Below, one piece after another: positions 11,605 to 34,602 of a stretch of 64,000 nucleotides of DNA (its first letter is position 1; the number at the start of each line of letters is the position of its first letter). Below the pieces are notes generated by a model that ran no database searches, was not told the origin of the DNA, and saw only the letters and a program-made list of their open reading frames with translations. This DNA is from Amycolatopsis sp. NBRC 101858. Its GTDB lineage: Bacteria > Actinomycetota > Actinomycetes > Mycobacteriales > Pseudonocardiaceae. Where the stretch lies: the NCBI RefSeq assembly GCF_030269325.1, contig NZ_BSTD01000004.1:102558-166557 (forward strand). The letters run 5' to 3'. A program made the translations under genes and the position numbers.

Positions 11605-12204
11605 ATGGGGCACCACGGATGGCAGGGCAACCCGCCCGGCACGGAGGACGAGGCACGCCGCCGGATCGTCGAAGCGGCGACGGCGTGCCTGGACCGGGCC
11701 GGGCTCGCGAAGACCAGCCTGTCCGACGTCGCCGCCGAGGCCGGGGTGACGCGGCAGACCGTCTACCGCTACTTCCCGAGCCTGAACGACATCCTGCGTG
11801 CCGTCGCCCTGGCCGGCGTCGAGGAGTTCGCCGGGCGGATGGAACGCCACCTCACGTCGTTCGGCAGTCCCACCGAAGTCGCCGTGGAGTCCGTGGTGTT
11901 CGCGGTCCGGACGCTGCCCGGCGAGCGTCACCTGGGCCTGCTGCTGCAGGCGGGCGAAGCCGACTTCTTCACGGTCGGCGTGATCTCGCCGCTGGCGTTT
12001 TCCTACGGCGCAAGGATCCTCCGCAACGTCCCGGTGGACTGGGCCGCCGTCGGCGTCACCACCGACGACGACCTCCAGGGGCTGGCCGAGATCCTGATGC
12101 GCCTCTTCCTGTCGTTCCTGCAGTACCCCTCGACCCCGCCGCTCACCGACGACGGGATCCGGGCCCTCGTCCGCCGCTGGATCGGCCCCGCCCTGGGCGG
12201 CTGA
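11605..12204 (+). CDS. TetR-family transcriptional regulator
   Basis: 199 residues from ATG 11605, nine bases after GGAGG (11591-11595). The helix-turn-helix is AGLAKTSLSDVAAEAGVTRQ followed by TVYRYFPSLNDI, the standard TetR signature. The ligand domain is divergent as usual. It is the last gene of the 9094-12204 operon, so it probably autoregulates through the inverted repeat at 9044-9070. Its stop abuts the stop of the convergent HyuB gene with no gap. Confidence 0.85.
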   Translation: MGHHGWQGNPPGTEDEARRRIVEAATACLDRAGLAKTSLSDVAAEAGVTRQTVYRYFPSLNDILRAVALAGVEEFAGRMERHLTSFGSPTEVAVESVVFAVRTLPGERHLGLLLQAGEADFFTVGVISPLAFSYGARILRNVPVDWAAVGVTTDDDLQGLAEILMRLFLSFLQYPSTPPLTDDGIRALVRRWIGPALGG

Positions 12205-14496
12205 TCACCCGACCAGGTGACCGAGTGCCTGCAGGGAGTTCGGGTGGTCCGCCGGGACGACGCCCGAGTACACCGCCGTCCAGCAGGACGGGCAGCAGTA
12301 CTGGCGGAACACCACCGGCGCGTCCACGTAGTCGGCCGCCGTCGCGATGATCTGGGGGCCCGCGTCCGTCGGGGGTCCCTCGTACACCGCCACCGCCGGT
12401 TCGCCGTCCGCCGTGCCGAGGAGCTCGCCGCAGTGGCCGCACGCCAGGCCGCCGTCCGCGGGCTCGACCAGGTTGTCGTCGAGGCGGCGGGCGCCGGGGC
12501 CCGCCTTGCCCAGTGACGGCCCGGGCACGGTCGACCGCGACCGGCGGTGCTCACGCTGCCGGGAACGTTCGGCCGTCGTCGCGGTGTCGTCCACCACACC
12601 GTCGCGGACGACGACCCCGTAGACGTCGAGCGCCGCCTCCGGAGTGATCTTGGCTTCACGCAGGTCGCGAGCCACGGCGGCAGGATCGCGCGTGAGGGGG
12701 TCGCCGTAGCCGCCGCCACCCTGCCACGTCATCGCGAACACCTCGCCGGGCGCCAGGTAGCTCGACGCGTAGTTCTGCCCCGGCTCCAAAGAGGACCCCA
12801 GCTCGTCCATCGTGGACGGCATCCGGCCGGACGCGAGCAGGGACGCGACCGGGCTCTGCCGCGCCACGACGTCCAGGCCGCTGTTGCCCGGGTGCCCGCC
12901 GGCGAGGCCGCCGTTCTGCGCGATCGCCTTGCCCGCCGACGCCAGCACCAGGCCCATCGGGACGCTCGTGCCGTGCGGGGTCATCGCGATCGACGCGCCG
13001 AGCCCGCCGCGGTGCCGCCCGGGCCCGCCGGAGTCGGGGACCTCGCGCCGCCACAACGTCAGGACGGGGTAGAGGAACTCGGTCATCTCGACGTCGGGAA
13101 CCCGGCCCATCGGGATGCAGAACAGGCCGCCGGTGTCGATGCCGTCGGCGTCCGGGCGGGCGCCGTAGCCGCCGGCCATCGGTTCCATGATGATGCTGAG
13201 GAACGGCGCCGGTGCCTCGCCGCGCTCGTCCAGCCCGGCGATCACCGCGGTGTCCCAGGTGCCGCAGCACGTCGCCTGGACGCTCTTGCCCAGCTCCAGG
13301 TCCCGGTCGAGCATCTGCGCGAGGCACTCGGCGATGAGGTTGCCGGTGAGCCAGGCCGGGCCGATCGGGCCGCGGCCGACCGCGGCGGGGAACGTCGCGT
13401 TGTTGAGCGTCCCCTCCTCGGTCACCAGGTCGAAGCAGCGCATCAGCCCGCCCGCCGACCACGGGATGTCGCCCGCGAGGATCGGCAGCAGCGCCAGCAT
13501 GACACCGCCGCGCATGCCCGCGTACGTGCAGTTGATGACGCCGGCCTGCGGGTCGGTACCGGTGAAGTCGAACGTCAGGTGGTCGCCGGTCTTGGTGGTG
13601 GTGACCGTGATCTTGTGCAGGTTCCGGTCGCCCTCGTGGGACTGGTCCTGGTACCCGGTGGCCGACCAGCTGCCGTCCGGCAGCGCGGAAAGCTTGTCCC
13701 GCAACCGGCTTTCGGCGTCGGACATCATCCGCTTCATGACGGCCTTGACCGTGTCGGGGCCGTACTGGTCGATCAGCGCGTGCAGGCGTTCGGCGCCGAC
13801 GTTGTTGGCGCCGACCTTCGCGCGCAGGTCGAGCCCGACGAGCATCGGCACGCGCGAGCGGCGCACCCAGAGGTCCGCGACGTCGCGTTGCAGCTGCCCG
13901 CCGCGCACGACCTTCACCGGCGGCGTCGGCAGCGACTCGGAGAAGACGTCCTCGGCCGCGGGGGAGAAGGAGCCGAGCCCGACGCCGCCGAGGTCCGGCT
14001 GGTGGGCGATGGCGCTGGTCCAGGCGAACAGCTTCCCGTCGTGGAAGACGGGCTGGTAGACCATGACGTCGTTCTGGTGCAGCCCGCCGCCGACCCACGG
14101 GTCGTTGGTGAGGAACATGTCGCCGGCTTCGATACCCGGGTTCGCCGCGCGGTTGCGCAGCGTCCAGTAGATGGCGAGGTCGACCGCGCCGACGAGCATC
14201 GTGTTGTAGAGCCCGACCTGGACCTCCTGGCCGAGCTCGTCGGAGATGGCGAAGTCGAAGTCGTTGGCGTCGGTGACGATCGGCGAGCCGGACATGCGCT
14301 TGAGCGCCTCACCCATCTCGTCGGTGACCGACCACAGCCGGTGCCGGATGACCTCGTAGGTCAGCGGGTCGAGGGCGTCGATCTGGTCCTGGGTGACACT
14401 GTGGACGTCCAAAGAGGACGGCAGCGAGCGCCGGAGCTCGCCGAGGTCGACGGGACGGCTGGAGAACTGCTCCGAGCCGGGGATCGGCATGCTCAT
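12205..14496 (-). CDS. HyuB/AcxB-type hydantoinase-carboxylase subunit with acetone-carboxylase-gamma-like tail
   Basis: 763 residues from ATG 14496, overlapping the HyuA stop as ATGA, with AGGAG upstream. Residues ~40-590 are a hydantoinase B/oxoprolinase domain: LDPLTYEVIRHRLWSVTDEMG, FLTNDPWVGGGLHQNDV, HQPDLGGVGLGS and ending WQGGGGYGDPLTRDP. Unusually, the last ~85 residues add a cysteine module, CGHCGELLG and later FRQYCCPSCWTAVYSG, resembling the zinc-binding gamma subunit AcxC of acetone carboxylase. HyuAB pairs hydrolyse cyclic amides with ATP, while Acx relatives carboxylate ketones. The fused tail makes the carboxylase reading worth considering. Stop abuts the convergent TetR gene. 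Confidence 0.85.
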   Translation of the reverse strand: MSMPIPGSEQFSSRPVDLGELRRSLPSSLDVHSVTQDQIDALDPLTYEVIRHRLWSVTDEMGEALKRMSGSPIVTDANDFDFAISDELGQEVQVGLYNTMLVGAVDLAIYWTLRNRAANPGIEAGDMFLTNDPWVGGGLHQNDVMVYQPVFHDGKLFAWTSAIAHQPDLGGVGLGSFSPAAEDVFSESLPTPPVKVVRGGQLQRDVADLWVRRSRVPMLVGLDLRAKVGANNVGAERLHALIDQYGPDTVKAVMKRMMSDAESRLRDKLSALPDGSWSATGYQDQSHEGDRNLHKITVTTTKTGDHLTFDFTGTDPQAGVINCTYAGMRGGVMLALLPILAGDIPWSAGGLMRCFDLVTEEGTLNNATFPAAVGRGPIGPAWLTGNLIAECLAQMLDRDLELGKSVQATCCGTWDTAVIAGLDERGEAPAPFLSIIMEPMAGGYGARPDADGIDTGGLFCIPMGRVPDVEMTEFLYPVLTLWRREVPDSGGPGRHRGGLGASIAMTPHGTSVPMGLVLASAGKAIAQNGGLAGGHPGNSGLDVVARQSPVASLLASGRMPSTMDELGSSLEPGQNYASSYLAPGEVFAMTWQGGGGYGDPLTRDPAAVARDLREAKITPEAALDVYGVVVRDGVVDDTATTAERSRQREHRRSRSTVPGPSLGKAGPGARRLDDNLVEPADGGLACGHCGELLGTADGEPAVAVYEGPPTDAGPQIIATAADYVDAPVVFRQYCCPSCWTAVYSGVVPADHPNSLQALGHLVG

Positions 14497-25336: not shown

Positions 25337-25745
25337 CGACGGCGTCGCCATCTCGATCCCGCAGCTGCCGATCGGCGGCGGCGCCGACGACACGACCGCC
25401 GTGAACCAGTGCGTCACCGTCAGCTGGCTGCAGTCCGACGTCTCGCCCGGCCCGGGCGTGAAAGTCACCGCGATCCGGCTCGAGCGGCCGGGGGTCTTCC
25501 GCCTGGGCGGTGGCTGCGGTGGGACGGACGCCTGCACGGGATTCACCTTCCACGCCAACGGCGACACCTGTTCGGTCGCGGTGACAGCGCTCGGGACCGG
25601 CGGCGACACGCGGCTGACCGTCGCGGGGAAAGCCGAGTGCTCGTGCGAGGACCTCCGCAGCCGGGTGCAGCCGAACTCGATCCGCCTGACCCAGCCGGAC
25701 GAGAGCGCTGAACCGCCGACGCCCGAAACCACCGCGTCCGAGTGA
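25176..25745 (+). CDS. Secreted lipoprotein of unknown function
   Basis: 189 residues with GAGGAGG before ATG 25176. Signal peptide LFRTSSLALVAVLAVGC carries a lipobox with C19. Residues 20-55 are a Pro/Ser-rich linker, and the rest is a small domain with paired cysteines (NQCVTVSW, GGCGGTDACTGF, GDTCSVAV, ECSCEDL) suggesting disulfides. No known family is recognised. Its stop overlaps the GTG of the next membrane-protein gene, so the two form a unit. Confidence 0.68.
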   Translation: MNLFRTSSLALVAVLAVGCSDPAGPRAPDSGTAEPSMSAPSMEPTGPETPRSGDDGVAISIPQLPIGGGADDTTAVNQCVTVSWLQSDVSPGPGVKVTAIRLERPGVFRLGGGCGGTDACTGFTFHANGDTCSVAVTALGTGGDTRLTVAGKAECSCEDLRSRVQPNSIRLTQPDESAEPPTPETTASE

Positions 25746-26599
25746 CACCGGAGCCTGGCCGCTTCGAGCGCTTCGTCGAGGCGGGCAAGTCCGTCATCCC
25801 GCCGCTGACCCTGGTCAGCACGCTGCTGTTCTACTTCGGGTACGTCTCCGCGCGCTCGCAGTACGAGTACTTCGGCGTGGACGTCGACACGGTCGGGCTG
25901 GGGACGCAGGACTACATCATGCGCAGCCCGCAGCCCCTGCTCACGCCGCTGCTGGTGTTCGCCGCGGCGGGTGCCGGCGCGGTCGCGGTGCACGCCGCCG
26001 TCCGCCGGCGGACCCGGGCGGCGACCCGGCTGGGCCGCGCCGGCCAGGTGACGGGCCTGGCCGCGCTGTCCGCCGGGCTCCTGCTGCTGGCCGGATACTC
26101 CTTCCTGCGCGACTGGCGGCTGTACGGGCTCGTCACCCCGCTGCTGATCGCCGCCGGCAGCACGCTGGTCCGGTACGGCTCCTTCGTCCGGCGGCTCACG
26201 CGGGAGCCGCCGGACCCGACGCCGCTTCGCCGGGTTTCGACGGCCCTCGGGTACGTCGTGATCGCCGTCAGCGCGTTCTGGCTGACGGCGACCGTGGCGC
26301 AGTGGTCGGGCCGCGGGCTCGCGATGTACGAGGCGAGCCGCCTGGACAAGCTGCCCAGCGTCATCCTCGACACCAAGGAAAGCCTGTTCCTCCGCAGCCC
26401 CGGCGTCCAGGAGACCAAGCTGCCGGCCTCGGACGGACAGACCTTCCACTACCGCTACCGGAACCTGCGCCTGCTGATCCACGGCAAGGACCGGATGTTC
26501 CTGGTGGCCGACCGGTGGTCGGCGGGCAGCGCGACGGTCGTCGTCCCGCTCGACGGCTCGGTGCGCGTGCAGTTCCAGTTCCAGAACCAGCGCCCGTGA
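25742..26599 (+). CDS. Membrane protein, four to five helices, unknown family
   Basis: 285 residues from GTG 25742, in GTGA overlap with the lipoprotein gene. Hydrophobic segments are at about residues 20-38, 62-82, 100-120, 125-140 and 170-190, followed by a ~90-residue soluble C-terminal domain (LPSVILDTKESLFLRSPGV, LLIHGKDRMFLVADRW). The first helix is followed by YEYFGVDVDTVGLGTQDY. I do not recognise it. The lipoprotein may be its extracytoplasmic partner. Confidence 0.65.
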   Translation: MTPEPGRFERFVEAGKSVIPPLTLVSTLLFYFGYVSARSQYEYFGVDVDTVGLGTQDYIMRSPQPLLTPLLVFAAAGAGAVAVHAAVRRRTRAATRLGRAGQVTGLAALSAGLLLLAGYSFLRDWRLYGLVTPLLIAAGSTLVRYGSFVRRLTREPPDPTPLRRVSTALGYVVIAVSAFWLTATVAQWSGRGLAMYEASRLDKLPSVILDTKESLFLRSPGVQETKLPASDGQTFHYRYRNLRLLIHGKDRMFLVADRWSAGSATVVVPLDGSVRVQFQFQNQRP

Positions 26600-26609
26600 A
26601 CCCGGCGTA

Positions 26610-27212
26610 TCAAGCAGCCCCTCGCTCGCTCCGGAGAGCATGACCACCCGAGTCGCCCGCATCGCCGGCGAGCAGCGCCGCGATCGCCGGCATGCGCCGC
26701 ACCCGGGCCAGGCAGCGCGCCCGCGACGGCCCGATCGAGCCGACCGGGATGCCGAGCGTCGCGCTGATCTCCCGGTAGGACTTGGGCGGGTCGCAGAACA
26801 GCAGCGCGAGCAGCTCGCGGTCGCGCACCGGCAGCCGGGCGCAGGCGCGGCGGGCGGCGGCGCGGCGTTCGGCCCCGATCAGCCCGGCGTCGAACGCGGG
26901 CTCGGTCAGCTCGCCGAGCAGCGGGTCGTCGGTCGGGACCTGCCGGTTCTGGTGACGCAGCAGCCGCAGGCACTCGTGCCGGGTGGTGGTGCGCAGCCAG
27001 CCGGGCAGCGCCTCCGGTTCGCGGATGTGCGTCAGGTTCGCGACCAGCCGCAGCCACACCGCGCCGCTGACGTCCTGGGCGTCGGCATTGCCGAGCCGGT
27101 ACTGCGCGCACACAGACAGGACCAGCGAAGAATATCGTTCGACGATATCGCGCCAGGCCCATTCGGCACCTCGAGCGGCATTTTCCAGCAATGGCACCGG
27201 CGACTCGTGCAT
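26610..27212 (-). CDS. ECF-type sigma-70 family factor
   Basis: 200 residues from ATG 27212 with GAGGAGGGG upstream. Region 2 is ERYSSLVLSVCAQYRLGNADA and WLRLVANLTHIREPEALPGWL; region 4 is LPVRDRELLALLFCDPPKSY followed by REISATLGIPVGSIGPSRAR. No anti-sigma gene adjoins it. It is divergent from the SARP regulator of the RiPP cluster and shares its promoter region, so it may belong to that cluster. The 5' third is AT-richer than the rest, as in the neighbouring SARP gene. Confidence 0.84.
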   Translation of the reverse strand: MHESPVPLLENAARGAEWAWRDIVERYSSLVLSVCAQYRLGNADAQDVSGAVWLRLVANLTHIREPEALPGWLRTTTRHECLRLLRHQNRQVPTDDPLLGELTEPAFDAGLIGAERRAAARRACARLPVRDRELLALLFCDPPKSYREISATLGIPVGSIGPSRARCLARVRRMPAIAALLAGDAGDSGGHALRSERGAA

Positions 27213-27232
27213 GGCCCCTCCTCGGACTGGGA

Positions 27233-27246
27233 TGTTCCCGGGAACA
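27233..27246. promoter_or_regulatory. 14-bp perfect palindrome between sigma and SARP genes
   Basis: TGTTCCCGGGAACA is fully self-complementary. It lies 20 bases upstream of the ECF sigma start and about 100 bases before the SARP start. It does not match the actinobacterial LexA box. It could bind a dimeric regulator acting on both genes. Confidence 0.4.
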
Positions 27247-27261
27247 CGATTTCGCCACGCC

Positions 27262-27300
27262 CTGCTCGCCGACCTTGCAGAGACCTTGCGGGGCGAGCAG
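27262..27300. promoter_or_regulatory. SARP-type direct repeats nested in an inverted repeat
   Basis: GACCTTGC occurs at 27271-27278 and 27282-27289, an 11-base period, which is the spacing at which SARP proteins bind heptamer repeats on one DNA face. CTGCTCGCC at 27262-27270 and GGCGAGCAG at 27292-27300 flank them as perfect inverted arms. The element ends 47 bases before the SARP start and suggests autoregulation. Confidence 0.55.
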
Positions 27301-27347
27301 CATCGACGTGGCCGGTCGTGGCGCGTCGAACGCGGGGAGTCCGCCGC

Positions 27348-30128
27348 ATGGAGTTCCTGCTGTTCGGGGAGGTACAGCTACGCGTCGCGGGAAAGCCGCT
27401 GGACGTCGGGACGCCGCGGCAGCAGGCCGTCCTGGCCGCGCTCGTGGTCGACGCCGGGCGCCCGGTCCCGATGGAGACGCTCATCGACCGCGTCTGGGGT
27501 GACGATCCACCGGGTGAAGCGCGCAATGTGGTGTATTCCCACCTGAGCCGAATTCGGCAGGTGCTCGCCGAGGTCACCGAGCTGACCGGCACAAAGACCG
27601 GCATAACCCGGCGCCCGGCGGGATACGTGCTGGAAATCGATTCCGATGTGGTTGACCTGAATAGGTTCGCACGTTTGGTCGAGCGCGGAAATGACGCCGG
27701 TGAAACCGATCAGGAGCGGGCCGCGGCGTTGCGCGAGGCGCTGCTCTGCTGGCGGGGTGCGCCGCTGGCCGGCGTGCCGGGGGACTGGGCCGACGGGGTT
27801 CGCGCGGCCTGGCACCGGCGCCGGCTCGACGCGGCCGTGCACTGGGGCGAGCTCGAACTGCGGCTCGGCCGGGCCGACGCCGTGCTCGCCGCGATGTCCG
27901 ACCTCGCCGCGGAGTACCCGCTCGTCGAGCCCCTCGAAGTCTTGCTCATGCGGGCCCTGCACAGTGCCGGGCGCGACGCCGAAGCCGTCGAACGCTACGC
28001 CGTCGTGCGGCACCGGCTCGCCGACGCGCTCGGCACCGACCCGGGCCCCGAGCTGCGCGCGCTGCACGAGGCGATCCTGCGGGGCGAGCTGCCGGTGGCG
28101 GCTCCGGCGGCGTCGCCACCACCGTCGTCGCCGGCCCAGCTGCCGCCGGACACCCCGGGGTTCGCGGGCCGCGAGAACGCGTTGCGGCGGCTCGGCGAGG
28201 TGACCGGCGGGCCGTCGCCGGCCGCGCGGGTCGTCGTCCTCTCCGGGACCGCCGGGGTCGGCAAGACGACGCTGGCCGTCCACTGGGCACACTCGGCCGC
28301 CCGCGGTTTCCCCGGCGGGCAGCTGTACGTCAACCTGCGCGGGTTCGACCCGACCGGGTCGCCGATGACGCCGGCCGCGGCGGTGCGCGGGTTCCTCGAA
28401 GCGCTCGAAGTGCCGGGCGAACGGATCCCGACCACCTTGGACGCGCAGGTCGGCCTGTACCGGACGCTGCTGGCGAACCGGCGGGTCCTGGTCGTGCTGG
28501 ACAACGCCCGCGACGCCGGGCAGGTGCGGCCGCTGCTGCCCGGCGCGCGGGCGTGCGTGGTCGTCGTGACCAGCCGCGACCAGCTCGCCGGCCTGGTCAC
28601 CGAGGGCGCGCACCCGCTCGTCGTCGACCTCCTCGACGACGCCGAGGCGCACGCGGTGCTGCGCCGCCGGATCGGCACCGCCCGGATCGCGGCCGACCCC
28701 GCCGCGGCCGAGGAGATCATCGGGCTGTGCGCGCGCCTCCCGCTGGCACTGGCCGTGGTGGCGGCCCGCGCGGCGACGTACCCGGCGTTCAGCCTGGCGG
28801 CGCTGGCCGGGCAGCTGCGGGACGCGCGCGGCGGCCTCGACGAGTTCGCCGGCGCCGACCCCGCGACCGACCCCCGCGCGGTGTTCTCCTGGTCGTACCT
28901 GCTGCTGGACCCCGCGGCCGCCCGCCTGTTCCGGCTCCTGGGGCTGCACCTGGGGCCGGACATCGGCACCCGCGCGGCGGCGAGCCTCGCGGGCCTGCCC
29001 GCCGCGAAGGTGCGGCCGCTGCTGTCCGAGCTCGCGAACGCGCACCTGGTCGCCGAGCACGCCCCCGGCCGCTACACGATGCACGACCTCCTGCGCGCGT
29101 ACGCCGACGAGCTGGTGCACGAGACGGACTCTCCCGCCGACCGGGAAACCGCGGCGCACCGCATGCTCGGCCACTACAGCCACACGGCCTACCACGCCGA
29201 CGGGTTCCTCGATCCCCGTCTCGAGGTCCCGCCCGCGCTGACCCCGTTGCCACCGGGGGCGGAGGCCGAACGGATAGTCGACCGCGGTCGGGCGCTGGCG
29301 TGGTTCGAGACCGAGCACCGGGTGCTCCTCCAGGCGGTCGCCACCGGGGCCGAGTTCGACGCGCGGGTGTGGGAGCTGGCGTGGGCGATCCAGCGGTTCC
29401 TCGCCATGCGTGGCCACTGGCACGACGAGAGCGCCGCGCTCACGGCGGCACTGGCCGCCGCACGCCGCCTCGGCGACCAGCGCAAGCAGGCGTTCGCCCA
29501 CCTGCACCCGGGCGGCACCCAGGTCCGCTTCGGCAGGCACACCGAAGCCGGCGACGACCTCAGGGCCGCGTTGAGCTTGTACAGCGCGAGCGACGATGTC
29601 GTGGGCCAGGCCTACGCGCACCGCCAGTTCGCCTGGCTGCTCGACCGGCAAGGGGCGGTGGCCGACGCGCTCACGCACGCCGAGCAGGCCCTGGAGCTGT
29701 TCCGCACGGCGGGCCACCTGGCCGGCCAGGCGACGGCCCTCAACGCGGTCGGCTGGTTCCACACCCTGCTCGGCAAGCACGAGTCGGCCATCGAGTACTG
29801 CCGGCAGGCCCTCGACCTGCAAACGCAGCTCGGGGACTTCATGGGGGCGACGCAGAGCTGGCACAGCATCGGCCACGCCCACCAGCAGCTCGGCGACCAC
29901 GACCGGGCGATCGCCTGCTACGAGAAGGCGCTGGAACTCGTGCACCGCAACGGGAACCTGGTGATCGAGGCCCGGATGCTCATCGACCTCGCGAACCTCC
30001 GCCGCGACCTCGGCGACCTCGAAGCCGCCCGGGCCGGGTGGCAGCGAGCCCACGACATCCTCGCCCGCCTCGCGCACCCGGAGGCCGACGAAGTGCGGAC
30101 GAGACTGGCGAAAGTACACAAAGGATAG
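27348..30128 (+). CDS. SARP-type regulator with NB-ARC and TPR domains (AfsR-like)
   Basis: 926 residues from ATG 27348; an upstream reading would cross the divergent sigma gene. Residues 1-95 are an OmpR-type winged helix (EFLLFGEVQLRVAGKPLDVG, PRQQAVLAALVVDAGRPV). Residues ~97-240 are the bacterial transcriptional activation domain. A Pro-rich linker leads to an NB-ARC ATPase with P-loop GTAGVGKT at 300-307 and LVVLDNARDAG, and residues ~690-920 form TPR repeats. Such proteins are cluster-situated activators of secondary metabolism. Codons in residues ~50-125 are AT-richer than the genome norm, a sign of mosaic origin. It heads the putative RiPP operon. Confidence 0.9.
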   Translation: MEFLLFGEVQLRVAGKPLDVGTPRQQAVLAALVVDAGRPVPMETLIDRVWGDDPPGEARNVVYSHLSRIRQVLAEVTELTGTKTGITRRPAGYVLEIDSDVVDLNRFARLVERGNDAGETDQERAAALREALLCWRGAPLAGVPGDWADGVRAAWHRRRLDAAVHWGELELRLGRADAVLAAMSDLAAEYPLVEPLEVLLMRALHSAGRDAEAVERYAVVRHRLADALGTDPGPELRALHEAILRGELPVAAPAASPPPSSPAQLPPDTPGFAGRENALRRLGEVTGGPSPAARVVVLSGTAGVGKTTLAVHWAHSAARGFPGGQLYVNLRGFDPTGSPMTPAAAVRGFLEALEVPGERIPTTLDAQVGLYRTLLANRRVLVVLDNARDAGQVRPLLPGARACVVVVTSRDQLAGLVTEGAHPLVVDLLDDAEAHAVLRRRIGTARIAADPAAAEEIIGLCARLPLALAVVAARAATYPAFSLAALAGQLRDARGGLDEFAGADPATDPRAVFSWSYLLLDPAAARLFRLLGLHLGPDIGTRAAASLAGLPAAKVRPLLSELANAHLVAEHAPGRYTMHDLLRAYADELVHETDSPADRETAAHRMLGHYSHTAYHADGFLDPRLEVPPALTPLPPGAEAERIVDRGRALAWFETEHRVLLQAVATGAEFDARVWELAWAIQRFLAMRGHWHDESAALTAALAAARRLGDQRKQAFAHLHPGGTQVRFGRHTEAGDDLRAALSLYSASDDVVGQAYAHRQFAWLLDRQGAVADALTHAEQALELFRTAGHLAGQATALNAVGWFHTLLGKHESAIEYCRQALDLQTQLGDFMGATQSWHSIGHAHQQLGDHDRAIACYEKALELVHRNGNLVIEARMLIDLANLRRDLGDLEAARAGWQRAHDILARLAHPEADEVRTRLAKVHKG

Positions 30129-30149
30129 TCGCCCAACGGGAGGAATGCG

Positions 30150-30437
30150 ATGACCGAAGAATCAATGGAATTCGTCGAACTTTGGCAAAAGGTCAAGGCG
30201 CTGACAGCGAGCCTGTCGAGTGCGGAGCGGGATCTGGTGCGCGCCAGCCTCCTGGTCGCCTGGATTCTCACCACGAAGGTGAGCGAACTCGAGAAGGGGT
30301 TCCAGGGCTCGTTCACGCCGGACCAAGCGGCGGTACTCACGCAGTATGCGTCCGGGAGCGCACCGGTCCACGTGGTACCCCACCTCACCAGTGGCTCCAT
30401 CCAGTCGGTCATCGAGAATTCCATCCGGTCGAACTGA
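30150..30437 (+). CDS. Candidate RiPP precursor peptide, 95 residues
   Basis: ATG 30150 has GGGAGG upstream and lies 21 bases after the SARP stop; one base separates its stop from the radical SAM start. Residues 1-55 are helical and leader-like (FVELWQKVKALTASLSS, RASLLVAWILTTKVSELEK). Residues ~66-95 are small, Ser/Val/His-rich and lack cysteine (SGSAPVHVVPHLTSGSIQSV), a plausible core for C-methylation. Codons are AT-richer than in surrounding genes. There is no Nif11 or nitrile-hydratase leader motif and no GG cleavage site, so the precursor role rests on size and context. A non-modified partner protein is the alternative. Confidence 0.6.
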   Translation: MTEESMEFVELWQKVKALTASLSSAERDLVRASLLVAWILTTKVSELEKGFQGSFTPDQAAVLTQYASGSAPVHVVPHLTSGSIQSVIENSIRSN

Positions 30438-30438
30438 C

Positions 30439-32256
30439 ATGACCGCGCCGCCGGTGGTGCTCGTTTCCATGCCGTTCCTCGAAGCCGATCGGCCGTCCAT
30501 CCAGCTCGGGCTGCTGAAGGCCATCGCGCAGCAGCACGGCTTTCCCGTGCGCACCCTGCACGCCAACCTCGACTTCGCGGTCCGGATCGGGCTCGACCAC
30601 TACCGGCGGCTCGCCGACCACCGGGGCCGGCAGATCGGGGACTGGCTGTTCTCCGTCGAGGCCTTCGGCGACGCCGCGCCGGACCCCGACGGGAAGCTGC
30701 TCGACGAGATCGGTGCCGAACTGTCCTACCTGGACGGTCCGGACCGGCTGCTCGCGATCCGGCGGCAGGACGTTCCCGCCTACCTCGACGCCGTCGCCGA
30801 GGAGCTGGCGGGTGTCCCGGTCGTCTGCTTCAGCTCGACGTTCCAGCAGAACACGGCGTCCTTCGCGCTCGCCCGGCGGCTCAAGGAGCGCGATCCGGAC
30901 GTCGTCACCGTGTTCGGCGGGGCCAACTTCGAGGGGGAGATGGGCCGGGAACTGGTCCGGTCCGTCGAGTGCATCGACTTCGCCGTGCTCGGCGAGGGTG
31001 ACGTCGCCTTCCCCCGCCTGCTCGAAGCGCTCGCGAACGGCGCGGATCCGGGCGCGATCGCCGGCGTTGCCCGGCGGGGTGGCGACGACGTCGTCGCCAC
31101 CCCGGCCGAGCCGCCGCACGAGCGGCTCGACGAACTGCCCGTGCCGGACTACGGCGAGTACTTCGAGCGCGCGACGCGGCTCGGGCTGCCGACCGAGCAC
31201 GTCGCGCTCCCGTTCGAGTCGGCCCGGGGGTGCTGGTGGGGTGCCAAGCACCACTGCACGTTCTGCGGGCTCAACGGCACCACCATGCGCTTCCGCGCCA
31301 AGTCGCCGTCGCGGGTGCTCGGCGAGCTGGACGAGCAGGCGCGCCGCCACCGCACCTTCCGGTTCGACGCCGTCGACAACATCCTCGAACCGGGCTACCT
31401 CAAGGACCTGCTGCCGGCGCTCACCGACGCGCGCCGGGACTACCGGATCTTCTACGAGGTCAAGGCGAACCTGACCCGCGCCCAGCTGAAGCTCCTCGCC
31501 GCGGCCGGCGTCACGCAGCTGCAGCCGGGCCTGGAGTCGCTGAGCTCCGCCGTGCTCCGGCTGATGGACAAGGGCGTCCGCGCCGCCCAGAACGTCAACC
31601 TCCTGCGCTGGGCCCGGTACTACGGCATCGGCGTCGCCTGGAACATCCTGTGGGGGTTCCCGGGCGAGCCCGCCGAGGAGTACGCCGCCCAGGCGGCGGC
31701 CGTCCCGCACCTGGTCCACCTCCAGCCGCCGGCCGGCGCGAACCGGCTGTGGCTGGAGCGGTTCAGCCCGCTGTTCACCCAGCCCGCGCGGTTCCCCCTG
31801 CGGACGCGCGAGCCCGAGGCGAGCTACCGCCACGTCTACCCGTCCACTGTGGACATCGACCGGGTCGCCTACTTCTTCGACTACGACCCGGAAGACGAGT
31901 TGCCGCCCGAGGTCTACGCACCCCTGAAGGACGCGGTGTCGGCGTGGTCCGCCGCCTGGGAGGCGAAGCAGCCGCCGGTGCTGGTCTACCGCTGCGCCCC
32001 CGGTTTCCTGCAGATCTACGACGGCCGGCACTCCGAGACCCACGGCACCTACACCTTCCACGACACCCTCGCGGACATCTACCTGGCCTGTGTGGACCGG
32101 CCGCGCACCGCCGCTGCCGTGCACCGCGAACTCGGCCTGACCGTGCCGGTTTCGGCCGTGGAAAAGGCTTTCCGGGGTTTCGGGGACCGCGGGCTGATGT
32201 TCCTCGACGACACTCTGGCCCTGTCGCTGGCGCTGCCCGCGACACCCGGCCGCTGA
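30439..32256 (+). CDS. RiPP maturation radical SAM C-methyltransferase (rSAM_ocin_1-like)
   Basis: 605 residues. The N-terminus, VVLVSMPFLEADRPSIQLGL, is the B12-binding-type domain of this group, with FGGANFEGEMG and DFAVLGEGDVAFPRLLEAL further on. The radical SAM cluster is C265-x7-C273-x2-C276 within ESARGCWWGAKHHCTFCGLN, the unusual spaced motif of ribosomal-peptide maturation radical SAM protein 1. A C-terminal ~120-residue domain may bind the leader. Known relatives methylate unactivated carbons of ribosomal peptides. No other cobalamin or radical SAM gene is nearby. Confidence 0.88.
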   Translation: MTAPPVVLVSMPFLEADRPSIQLGLLKAIAQQHGFPVRTLHANLDFAVRIGLDHYRRLADHRGRQIGDWLFSVEAFGDAAPDPDGKLLDEIGAELSYLDGPDRLLAIRRQDVPAYLDAVAEELAGVPVVCFSSTFQQNTASFALARRLKERDPDVVTVFGGANFEGEMGRELVRSVECIDFAVLGEGDVAFPRLLEALANGADPGAIAGVARRGGDDVVATPAEPPHERLDELPVPDYGEYFERATRLGLPTEHVALPFESARGCWWGAKHHCTFCGLNGTTMRFRAKSPSRVLGELDEQARRHRTFRFDAVDNILEPGYLKDLLPALTDARRDYRIFYEVKANLTRAQLKLLAAAGVTQLQPGLESLSSAVLRLMDKGVRAAQNVNLLRWARYYGIGVAWNILWGFPGEPAEEYAAQAAAVPHLVHLQPPAGANRLWLERFSPLFTQPARFPLRTREPEASYRHVYPSTVDIDRVAYFFDYDPEDELPPEVYAPLKDAVSAWSAAWEAKQPPVLVYRCAPGFLQIYDGRHSETHGTYTFHDTLADIYLACVDRPRTAAAVHRELGLTVPVSAVEKAFRGFGDRGLMFLDDTLALSLALPATPGR

Positions 32257-32323
32257 CGCGTATCAGGACCGCCGCCGGAGTCTCCGTCCATCGCCAGGAC
32301 GAGTTCGACGAAAGGCGCGTGAC

Positions 32324-32719
32324 ATGGACCCGTCGGTCATCGTGGCGACGGCGAACGCCGCGGCGGAGCGGCTCGCCGGCCGGACGCCGCGGGCGTTCAC
32401 CTGGGGGCCGCTCGAGAGGGGGACCTGCACGATGTTCGCGGGCGCCCGGTGGACGCTCTTCCCCGGCGGGACCGCCACCTTCGACGGCACCGTGGCCGGC
32501 GAACCGGGCCGCACCTGGGTGATCTGGCACGTCGACCTGCTCGACGCGCACGGGACCGTCCTGGGTTCGCTGGCCACCGAGCACCCGGTCGAGGGCGACT
32601 GGCGCAGGTTCGTGACCACGCCGGGCGGCGCGCGGCACCACCGGTTCCGCGCCCGGGCGAACTTCGACGCCGGCCTGTGGGACGACCTCGCCGCCCTGCG
32701 GATGCACTGGAGCTGCTGA
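32324..32719 (+). CDS. DUF6294-like small protein
   Basis: 131 residues from ATG 32324, with AAAGGC about 15 bases upstream. The beta-rich domain reads FTWGPLERGTCTMFAGARWT, LFPGGTATFDGTVAG and VIWHVDLLDAHGTVLGSL, then ends LAALRMHWSC with a C-terminal cysteine. This matches my memory of DUF6294, whose function is unknown. It has no signal peptide. It sits 67 bases after the maturase on the same strand, so it may be part of the RiPP operon. Confidence 0.68.
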   Translation: MDPSVIVATANAAAERLAGRTPRAFTWGPLERGTCTMFAGARWTLFPGGTATFDGTVAGEPGRTWVIWHVDLLDAHGTVLGSLATEHPVEGDWRRFVTTPGGARHHRFRARANFDAGLWDDLAALRMHWSC

Positions 32720-32817
32720 CCGGAATGCCCGGGTGAGCGGCGAGCCCGAGCGACGAAGATCACTTCGCGCCGGTCCCGTGCCGGGCCGGCCACTTCCGTC
32801 CCGCATGATGCACGGAC

Positions 32818-34029
32818 ATGGTCGAAGAGTTCCGCTTGCGTTCGGTCGCCGCGGCGGCGTACGGGCCGGCCGCCCTGTTCGGGGTGTCGGAGGGTGCCGT
32901 GCTGCCGGTCATCGCGCTGAGTGCGATCGACCGCGGGGCGAGCACCTCGACGGCCGCGCTGATCGCCGCGTTGCTCGGGATCGGGTCGCTGGCCGCGAAC
33001 ATCCCGGCCGGCGTGCTCGCGACGCGGTTCGGTGAGCGCCGGTCGATGCTGGTGGCGGCGGCCGTCATGGTCGCGGGCCTGCTGATCTGCCTGGTGGACC
33101 TGGGGCACGGACCGTGGTCGCTCGTGCTCTACGGCTGCGGGGTCACCCTGATCGGCGTGGCGAGCGCGGTCTACGGCCTGGCCCGCCAGACGTACCTGAC
33201 CGAGATCGTCCCGGAGCACATGCGGGCCCGGGCGCTGTCGACGCTGGGCGGCAGCATGCGGATCGGCGTGTTCCTCGGGCCGTTCGCCGGTGCCGCCGCG
33301 ATGCGGTTCGCCGGGCTGCCCGGCGCGTACTACGTGAGCCTGGTGGCGATCTTCGCGGTGGGTGCCCTGGTGCTGCGGGTACCCGACCTGGAGGTCACCG
33401 CGGACGACCGGGCGGCCGCGTCGGCGGTCACGACGCGGGGCATGCTCAGGCAGCAGTGGCGGGTGTACGCGACCTTGGGCGTCGGAATCCTGCTGTTGTC
33501 GGCGATCCGCCAGACCCGGCAGACGGTGGTGCCGCTGTGGGCGGCGCACATCGGCCTGTCGCCGACGACGAGTTCGATCATCTACGGCGTCGCCGGAGCG
33601 GTCGACGCGCTGACGTTCTACCCGGCCGGGAAGGTGATGGACCGCTACGGCCGGCGCTGGGTGGCCGTGCCGGCGACGCTCGTGCTGGGCGTGTCGTTCC
33701 TGGTGATGCCGCTCGCCGGCGGTGCGACGCTGCTGACGGTGGCGGCCATGGTGATGGGCTTCGGCAACGGCATCGGCTCGGGCATCGTGATGACACTCGG
33801 CGCCGACGTGTCCCCGAAGGTGGGGCGGCCGACGCACATCGGGATCTGGAACGAGCTCGCGGACATCGGCACCGGGGTGGGGCCGCTGGTCCTGGCGGCG
33901 GTGACCGCACTGGCCGGCCTCGGCGCGGGGATCGTGGCGAGCGGCCTGATCGGGTTCGCGGCGGCCGGGGCGCTGTGGCGGTGGATCCCGAGACCACGCC
34001 GTGCCGGCGCGGACTGCCCGGCGGGCTGA
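32818..34029 (+). CDS. MFS transporter, putative exporter of the RiPP cluster
   Basis: 403 residues with twelve predicted helices, e.g. STAALIAALLGIGSLAANIP and VAAAVMVAGLLICLVDLG. Loop 2-3 has the short motif TRFGERRSM; the second half carries KVMDRYGRRWVAVPA. The start ATG 32818 has only a weak RBS. It follows the DUF6294 gene by 98 bases and precedes a small hairpin at 34050-34064, marking the probable cluster end. Substrate is inferred from position only. Confidence 0.82.
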   Translation: MVEEFRLRSVAAAAYGPAALFGVSEGAVLPVIALSAIDRGASTSTAALIAALLGIGSLAANIPAGVLATRFGERRSMLVAAAVMVAGLLICLVDLGHGPWSLVLYGCGVTLIGVASAVYGLARQTYLTEIVPEHMRARALSTLGGSMRIGVFLGPFAGAAAMRFAGLPGAYYVSLVAIFAVGALVLRVPDLEVTADDRAAASAVTTRGMLRQQWRVYATLGVGILLLSAIRQTRQTVVPLWAAHIGLSPTTSSIIYGVAGAVDALTFYPAGKVMDRYGRRWVAVPATLVLGVSFLVMPLAGGATLLTVAAMVMGFGNGIGSGIVMTLGADVSPKVGRPTHIGIWNELADIGTGVGPLVLAAVTALAGLGAGIVASGLIGFAAAGALWRWIPRPRRAGADCPAG

Positions 34030-34107: not shown

Positions 34108-34602
34108 GTGCAGTTCGAAGAGTTCTCCCGTGAGCAACTGCCGGGCCTGGTGCGGTTCGCCGCCGTGCTGACCGGTGACCGTGAGCTGGCCCAGGACGTC
34201 GTGCAGGACGCGCTGGTGCGTGCGCACCAGGGCTGGCGGCGGATCGCGGTGGTGGACCGGCCCGACCTGTACATGCGGAAGATGGTCGTCAACGGCTACC
34301 TCGGCTGGCGCCGCCGCTGGTACCAGCGATCCGTGCGCCCCACCGCCGACGTCACCCGGTTCCGCGAGCCGGTCGCGCCCGATCCGGCGTGGCGGATCAC
34401 CGACGCCGACCAGCTCGCCGGCCCGCTCGCCCGGCTGAGCCGCGCCCAGCGAGCGTCGATCGTGCTGCGGTTCTACGAAGACCGCGACGACGCCGACATC
34501 GCCGCGGTGCTCGGCTGCGCGCCCGGGACGGTGCGCAGCCACATCTCGCGCGGCCTGAGCGCACTGCGGGTCGAGCTCAACGAAGGCAAGGAGAGTGTGT
34601 GA
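34108..34602 (+). CDS. SigE-family ECF sigma factor
   Basis: 164 residues from GTG 34108. Begins FEEFSREQLPGLVRFAAVLTG, DRELAQDVVQDALVRAHQGW, the typical start of the SigE-like sigma-70 group of actinomycetes. Region 4 is LSRAQRASIVLRFYEDRDDA then DIAAVLGCAPGTVRSHISRGLSAL is the helix-turn-helix. CATCTT at 34095-34100 lies seven bases before the start, so a leaderless mRNA is plausible. The next gene's ATG overlaps the TGA by one base, so the membrane protein downstream is its likely anti-sigma partner. Confidence 0.86.
   Translation: MQFEEFSREQLPGLVRFAAVLTGDRELAQDVVQDALVRAHQGWRRIAVVDRPDLYMRKMVVNGYLGWRRRWYQRSVRPTADVTRFREPVAPDPAWRITDADQLAGPLARLSRAQRASIVLRFYEDRDDADIAAVLGCAPGTVRSHISRGLSALRVELNEGKESV

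Follow-up and report, generated by a model that had tools for sequence, protein, structure and literature searches.

A putative RiPP cassette with a B12-binding radical SAM maturase and a new precursor family in Amycolatopsis sp. NBRC 101858

The small open reading frame and the adjoining maturase gene

Analysis of a 64,000-nucleotide stretch of the Amycolatopsis sp. NBRC 101858 genome (contig NZ_BSTD01000004.1, positions 102,558 to 166,557; here called the window, to which all coordinates refer) revealed a small open reading frame (ORF) followed by a gene for a B12-binding radical S-adenosylmethionine (SAM) maturase. It is well supported that the two form a system for a ribosomally synthesized and post-translationally modified peptide (RiPP) with a new precursor family. 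They are part of a conserved 6.1-kb cassette (ca. 26601-32722) which extends from an extracytoplasmic function (ECF) sigma factor gene to a DUF6294 gene. Our reading of the whole, to which we assign a probability of about two in three, is a RiPP cassette in which the maturase binds the leader of the small-ORF product and C-methylates its tail.

The small ORF (30150..30437, + strand) encodes a putative precursor of 95 amino acids. Its leader (residues ca. 1-66) includes an FxxxF motif (FQGSF, residues 51-55, 30300..30314, + strand) and the putative core (residues 67-95, 30348..30434, + strand) carries the repeat SIQSVIENSIRS; the boundary at residues 66/67 is a guess. The ORF is preceded by a ribosome-binding site (GGGAGGA) and lies 21 bp behind a gene for a Streptomyces antibiotic regulatory protein (SARP). 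The preliminary description of the locus mentioned AT-richer codons in both genes, which is correct for the small ORF (GC content at third codon positions 0.79, versus 0.87-0.98 in seven other genes measured), whereas within the SARP gene only the first part conforms (0.71 over codons 55-110, versus 0.93 overall). As described there for an rSAM_ocin_1-like enzyme, the maturase gene (30439..32256, + strand) starts one base past the stop codon of the small ORF; in L001, L019, L023 and L053 of the related loci introduced below the two overlap by four bases. The 11.16-Mb genome carries a single maturase gene of this kind, and maturase identity places it closest to Amycolatopsis.

The maturase (605 amino acids) matches TIGR03975 with 638.8 bits, compared to a curated cut-off of 281.85, and PF04055 with 53.2 bits, while the PF02310 score (28.3 bits) stays under its cut-off of 32.1. 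Its structure, predicted from 60 sequences with a mean local confidence (pLDDT) of 93.0 and a predicted template modelling score (pTM) of 0.90, has as best solved matches in Foldseek the cobalamin radical SAM enzymes TokK (E 3.1e-16), TsrM, OxsB, CysS and MgmA. All 60 maturases compared share the three cysteines of the cluster-binding motif Cx7Cx2C (C265, C273 and C276; 31231..31266, + strand). Excerpts of PMC5682303 give the same spacing for PoyB/PoyC and for bottromycin enzymes. By its score the protein is classified as a TIGR03975 RiPP maturation enzyme, and in its domains, three-cysteine motif and predicted fold it resembles class B radical SAM methyltransferases. TIGR03975 serves as an antiSMASH RiPP rule; according to excerpts of one study (PMC9426513), its matches were inspected manually there and put aside as probable false positives.

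The C-terminal domain (residues 523-587, 32005..32199, + strand) is, by profile comparison, similar to PqqD and thus to the RiPP recognition element (RRE), a frequent but not general component of RiPP enzymes or their partners. A profile of the last 98 residues (54 of 60 rows) aligned to a PqqD profile, made from 23 of 25 family matches, with a probability of 93% and E 4.8e-8 in a single comparison, whereas four other parts of the maturase gave at most 0.1%. The order of secondary structure elements in the model, three strands followed by three helices, agrees with that of an RRE.

Distribution and variability of the precursor

A scan of named genomes yielded 300 stretches that matched the pattern, and relatives were encoded in 164 of them. 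The best 80 were retained, giving 79 loci with up to 10 kb of flank on either side of the maturase gene. The working set consists of the 39 actinobacterial loci with a maturase identity of at least 53% (L001-L025, L028, L029, L031, L032, L034, L036, L045-L047, L052, L053, L056, L069 and L071). When three precursor profiles were searched against all 79 loci, 34 of the 39 gave a precursor match, and there the precursor always ends at most ca. 210 bp upstream of the maturase start or overlaps it. Upstream matches from outside any training set are found in L014, L020, L027, L029 and L045. Outside the 39, there is an upstream match in L027 (Mesorhizobium) and a weak downstream match in L041.

At the family level, a close maturase (E ≤1e-150) is encoded in 21 of 390 genomes, at 23 loci, and a profile of 20 precursors matches 22 genomes. 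These include the identical 21, with the precursor adjoining the maturase at all 23 loci; the additional match (G286; E 0.0087, within a 1268-residue frame) was taken as chance. In the family of L014 (Actinoplanes), 35 of 354 genomes possess the maturase, and 22 of the 30 Micromonosporaceae loci that were read have a small ORF bearing the motif or a variant with Tyr replacing the second Phe. The association of small ORF and maturase is not a chance effect, and the precursor-maturase pair put forward in the preliminary description stands: the small ORF is present next to homologous maturases. The system is patchy, since in a phylum-wide sample of 396 genomes a close maturase was found only in the genome of strain NBRC 101858 itself.

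Some loci deviate from the common arrangement. Two genomes (G008 and G123, loci L093 and L107) each harbor two differing copies of the maturase-precursor pair. In a Kitasatospora locus with another gene order (L038), a leader-like small ORF, recognized by eye, lies downstream of the maturase gene (11959-12270), followed by longer ORFs of which the last ends like another maturase. The record of L056 is named Rhodococcus rhodnii, but its maturase differs little from the Kibdelosporangium aridum enzyme in the tree (branch lengths 0.031 and 0.035), and the strain is possibly misnamed.

Within the cassette, no gene is less conserved than the small ORF, which has 28-46% identity to seven Amycolatopsis homologs as compared to 80-86% for the maturase. 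Rapid change affects all of it, and the tail surpasses the leader chiefly by varying more in length. Alignments showed F55 in every one of 35 precursor rows and F51 in at least 90% of them, both being present in all 20 rows of the precursor alignment. Of the eleven columns conserved in at least 14 of these 20 rows, P77 is the only one in the tail; the other ten fall within residues 1-66. Tail length ranges from 18 to 63 residues when counted from residue 60, or 12-66 when counted after the motif, and the tails vary mainly in length and in repeats where Lys, Arg, Asn or Gln comes after Ile or Val. Examples are SIQSVIENSIRS in the window, SINASINDSINAAIRP in L082, FIKADFIKPHFIR in L003 and IIRS, twice, in L069. 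Some tails contain Cys, Tyr, Trp or His.

Eight precursors (L011, L013, L016, L021, L022, L024, L032 and L036) carry a hydrophobic N-terminal segment, with a best 19-residue hydropathy of 1.76-2.25 versus 0.44-1.42 in the other rows; the value for L046 is 1.99. L011 combines this signal-like segment with the usual leader part. In four of the eight, two arginines precede the segment, and TIGR02811 (formate_TAT) is a weak match for three of 35 precursor rows, with E values no better than 0.00048. Eight loci, seven of the signal-like type and L046, have a GNAT gene downstream of the maturase gene; the copy in L016 matches PF13302.

Related peptide systems and the proposed modification

Pairs of a B12-binding radical SAM enzyme and a DUF5825 protein are reportedly the subject of work by Zhang et al. 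from 2025 (Nat Chem Biol) on C-methylated clavusporins. Excerpts of PMC12257519 link such pairs to clavusporin C-methylation. Our literature search, whose coverage did not extend to the clavusporin paper, found only passing mentions of the TIGR03975 family. DUF5825 genes occur in eight of 80 genus genomes, at nine loci, all with an adjoining radical SAM gene whose product is 38-45% identical to the window maturase over the covered part. The C-terminal half of DUF5825 also resembles the C-terminal domain of the maturase (hhalign 90.9%, E 1.2e-6, versus 0.2-2.8% for four other parts); DUF5825 itself does not match the PqqD profile (0.2%). In a midpoint-rooted maturase tree of 65 rows, which leaves seven of the 39 loci outside, the window maturase falls in a group of 33 rows with 100/100 support, 30 of them with a precursor; L027 and L045, both with a precursor, fall just outside, beside rows with Nif11-type leaders (see below). 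Three DUF5825-linked rows form their own 100/100 group on a long branch, with weakly supported placement among the other families. By these sequence comparisons, the window maturase is a separate branch of an enzyme family to which the DUF5825-paired enzymes also belong. Membership of the clavusporin type was rejected because DUF5825 is absent from the strain's own genome and, as a separate protein, from the 79 loci (profile from nine Amycolatopsis sequences).

Other TIGR03975-like systems are similar in having a homologous maturase with a small ORF directly upstream, but their leaders and tails are unrelated and their maturases belong to other branches of the tree. Two leaders adjoining Chloroflexota maturases (L026:9569-9835 and L037:4172-4435), which we take to be of the Nif11 type, are followed by very short tails rich in Ile, Val and Thr (ISITVTIKF and KVTITIEF); a profile from these two sequences matches only its own rows among the 79 loci. 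In L059, L060, L061, L063, L065, L070, L073, L076 and L079, the small ORF directly upstream of the maturase is Cys-rich and starts with a TLEMRVAELEDKL-type sequence. These ORFs are spread over several phyla (Paracoccus, Acidobacteriota, Solirubrobacter); many have repeats of the CTIRACTIIQ type, and their ends are rich in Gly. A repetitive and related set of eight Cys-rich small ORFs from other branches shows the order of Ile or Val before a polar residue strongly, 46 times versus 6.9 with a phi class that also includes Thr and Cys.

Proteusin precursors carry nitrile-hydratase-like leaders. No leader model of Pfam or NCBIfam matched the 35 precursors described here, which sets them apart from proteusins, and a known leader class was therefore rejected; the alignment used for this search had a truncated L082 row and an L093 row that began too early. 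The window precursor has no family match in either database. As far as the available excerpts tell, the polytheonamide enzymes PoyB and PoyC are alike in the Cx7Cx2C spacing and in B12-dependent C-beta methylation of Val and Ile, a likeness drawn from their description, and PoyC methylates Ile3 and Val5, Val10 and Val21 (PMC11285071). Partial accounts of bottromycin biosynthesis likewise describe radical SAM C-methylation by BotRMT1-3 with this motif; the bottromycin core, however, is N-terminal with a C-terminal follower, whereas the variable part is C-terminal in the precursors studied here. The earlier statement that the genes match no nameable RiPP class went too far, given the DUF5825 pairs of this enzyme family and the motif reported for PoyC.

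Modified residues might be sought in the tail repeats. In 35 of 37 precursor rows (L082 and L093 were left out), the motif phi-[IV]-[KRNQ] occurs 25 times in the tails as compared to 5.5 in shuffled sequences, with none of 2000 shuffles as high, whereas the leaders contain nine against 8.9 in shuffles. We regard the motif as a lineage feature that hints at the modified residues without proving them, because tails held out from this test keep only a looser form and the reverse order rises too (see below).

From these data the following course of events can be proposed. The SARP and the ECF sigma factor would, judging from their position, control expression of the cassette, and translation of the small ORF is probably coupled to that of the maturase. 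We infer that the small-ORF product is the substrate of the maturase, whose own PqqD/RRE-like domain would bind the leader. The cobalamin/radical SAM core would then methylate carbons of the tail; the likeliest targets would be the beta-carbons of Val and Ile preceding Lys, Arg, Asn or Gln, as suggested by the Cx7Cx2C motif common with PoyC, the predicted fold and the recurrent tail residues. C-methylation of Val and Ile is by analogy the most likely reaction. A peptidase and an exporter encoded elsewhere may release the product.

Several observations weigh against this proposal. The precursors used for the pairing are largely profile rows (20 of 23; L097, L106 and L107 are not), so the strength of the pairing lies in the absence of the precursor from the other 369 genomes, with one marginal match. 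Five of the 39 loci gave no profile match (L025, L031, L047 at a contig edge, L053 and L071), and by eye three of the 30 Micromonosporaceae loci have no small-ORF candidate (L157, L185 and L186). Some small ORFs at the maturase-adjacent position lack FxxxF: related-looking ones without the strict motif occur in L161, L164, L170, L171 and L184, of which only L161 and L170 match a profile. The tail motif was picked after inspecting the sequences. In ten held-out actinobacterial cores, counted with a phi class widened by Thr and Cys relative to the first test, it occurs four times versus 2.7 (524 of 2000 shuffles as high); the looser [IV].?[KR] occurs 16 times versus 8.2, a count that none of 2000 shuffles reached, and the reversed [KRNQ][IV] is likewise elevated, with 13 versus 7.3 (7 of 2000). 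This held-out set excludes L167 and L173 as near-copies of training rows, L180 as a near-copy of L175, the non-convincing L185 and the other seven of the 30 loci without a strict-motif candidate. The preliminary description expected a variable C-terminus, and conservation along the whole length was indeed not found, but the difference is less clear-cut than expected: identity at aligned positions of the 20 rows is 29.1% for residues 1-66 and 22.8% from residue 67 to the end, and 25.6% versus 10.0% with gaps counted. In eight Amycolatopsis rows the aligned values are 38.8% for the leader and 34.7% for the tail, and in three of eight homologs (L019, L087 and L088) the tail is closer to that of the window than the leader. 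Finally, no peptidase or exporter gene recurs beside the cassette.

It is unlikely, although conceivable, that the precursor-maturase pair is real but the enzyme introduces a cross-link or another non-methyl change. According to partial descriptions of another RiPP pathway, the B12-dependent radical SAM enzyme PbsB cross-links ortho-tyrosines instead of methylating, which also counts against C-methylation here, and the presence of Cys, Tyr, Trp or His in some tails would fit such a reading. Cys, Tyr, Trp and Phe are absent from residues 67-95 of the window precursor, however, and the motif spacing is the one reported, in the excerpts cited above, for methyltransferases. That the small ORF encodes an accessory or scaffold protein of the maturase, with the substrate elsewhere, is quite improbable. 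Such a role would fit the modest excess of leader over tail conservation, as well as the leader-like part in the Mesorhizobium locus and the one recognized by eye behind the Kitasatospora maturase gene. It is at odds with tails that vary widely in length and sequence, with the leader-binding type of domain that the maturase itself owns, and with other maturases of the family, which have at this position small ORFs with Cys-rich repeats or a Nif11 leader.

If the proposed RiPP reading is correct, the maturase is a one-enzyme, RRE-fused candidate for methylating unactivated peptide carbons, and a precursor family paired with one large maturase branch makes the clusters testable by co-expression and gives a searchable handle for products. 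More tentatively, the SARP, the FxxxF precursor and the RRE-fused B12-binding radical SAM enzyme could define an undescribed, widespread actinobacterial RiPP class that C-methylates Val and Ile in short cores and in which the Actinoplanes-type leader could direct its own export. The modified peptide would in that case leave the cell via its signal-peptide-like, sometimes twin-arginine N-terminus, without a dedicated transporter.

Extent of the cassette and neighboring genes

The genes named in the preliminary description, from the ECF sigma factor to a major facilitator superfamily (MFS) protein, were all found at the positions given there. The ECF sigma factor gene (26610..27212, - strand; sigma70-ECF 63.7 bits) forms the left end of the cassette and is divergent from the AfsR-type SARP gene (27348..30128, + strand; BTAD, NB-ARC and TPR domains), and the DUF6294 gene (32324..32719, + strand; 38.4 bits, cut-off 34.9) forms the right end. 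According to tblastn searches, 36 of the 39 loci have a SARP gene that precedes the maturase gene and shares its strand; of the remaining three, L031 has it downstream, L028 gave no match and L047 reaches a contig edge. A divergent ECF sigma homolog occurs in 14 loci, a short match in L014 being left uncounted, and DUF6294 in six.

Comparison of the window with six cassette-bearing relatives by blastn placed the right border of DNA homology at 32719-32722 in all six. The left border lies at 26601-26603 in L189 and L188, where the adjoining gene is inverted in L188; in the other four the homology continues leftward into the neighboring gene. At the small ORF the alignment is interrupted in L187, L188 and L002 and continuous in L189, L003 and L019. 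The conserved unit is therefore shorter than the extent of 26610..34029 proposed earlier, and the MFS gene (32818..34029), which had been counted as an exporter of the system, lies outside. A single export-linked cluster including this gene is highly improbable: it is on the same strand 98 bp behind the DUF6294 gene, but a homolog is found by tblastn in 0 of the 79 loci within flanks of at most 10 kb, homology ends before it in all six relatives, it aligns on its own in G066, and among the 12 other Amycolatopsis genomes that have it (13 of 80 genus genomes, own included; P0004) 11 lack a close maturase and one (G061) has it 1.73 Mb away.

Our guess for DUF6294 is that one sub-branch employs it as an optional protein for tailoring or immunity. 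Its predicted structure, of moderate confidence, is beta-rich (best pLDDT 78.2, five models 41.0-78.2) and had no match in the PDB at E ≤0.001. On the left, the cassette is adjoined by a gene (25742-26599) whose product has no Pfam match and no NCBIfam match better than E 0.026. This gene adjoins the cassette in several Amycolatopsis genomes, is inverted in G061, and is also found without a close maturase in G029, G054 and G055. On the right, a second sigma factor gene, of the SigE family, directly follows the MFS gene (34108-34602), outside the cassette.

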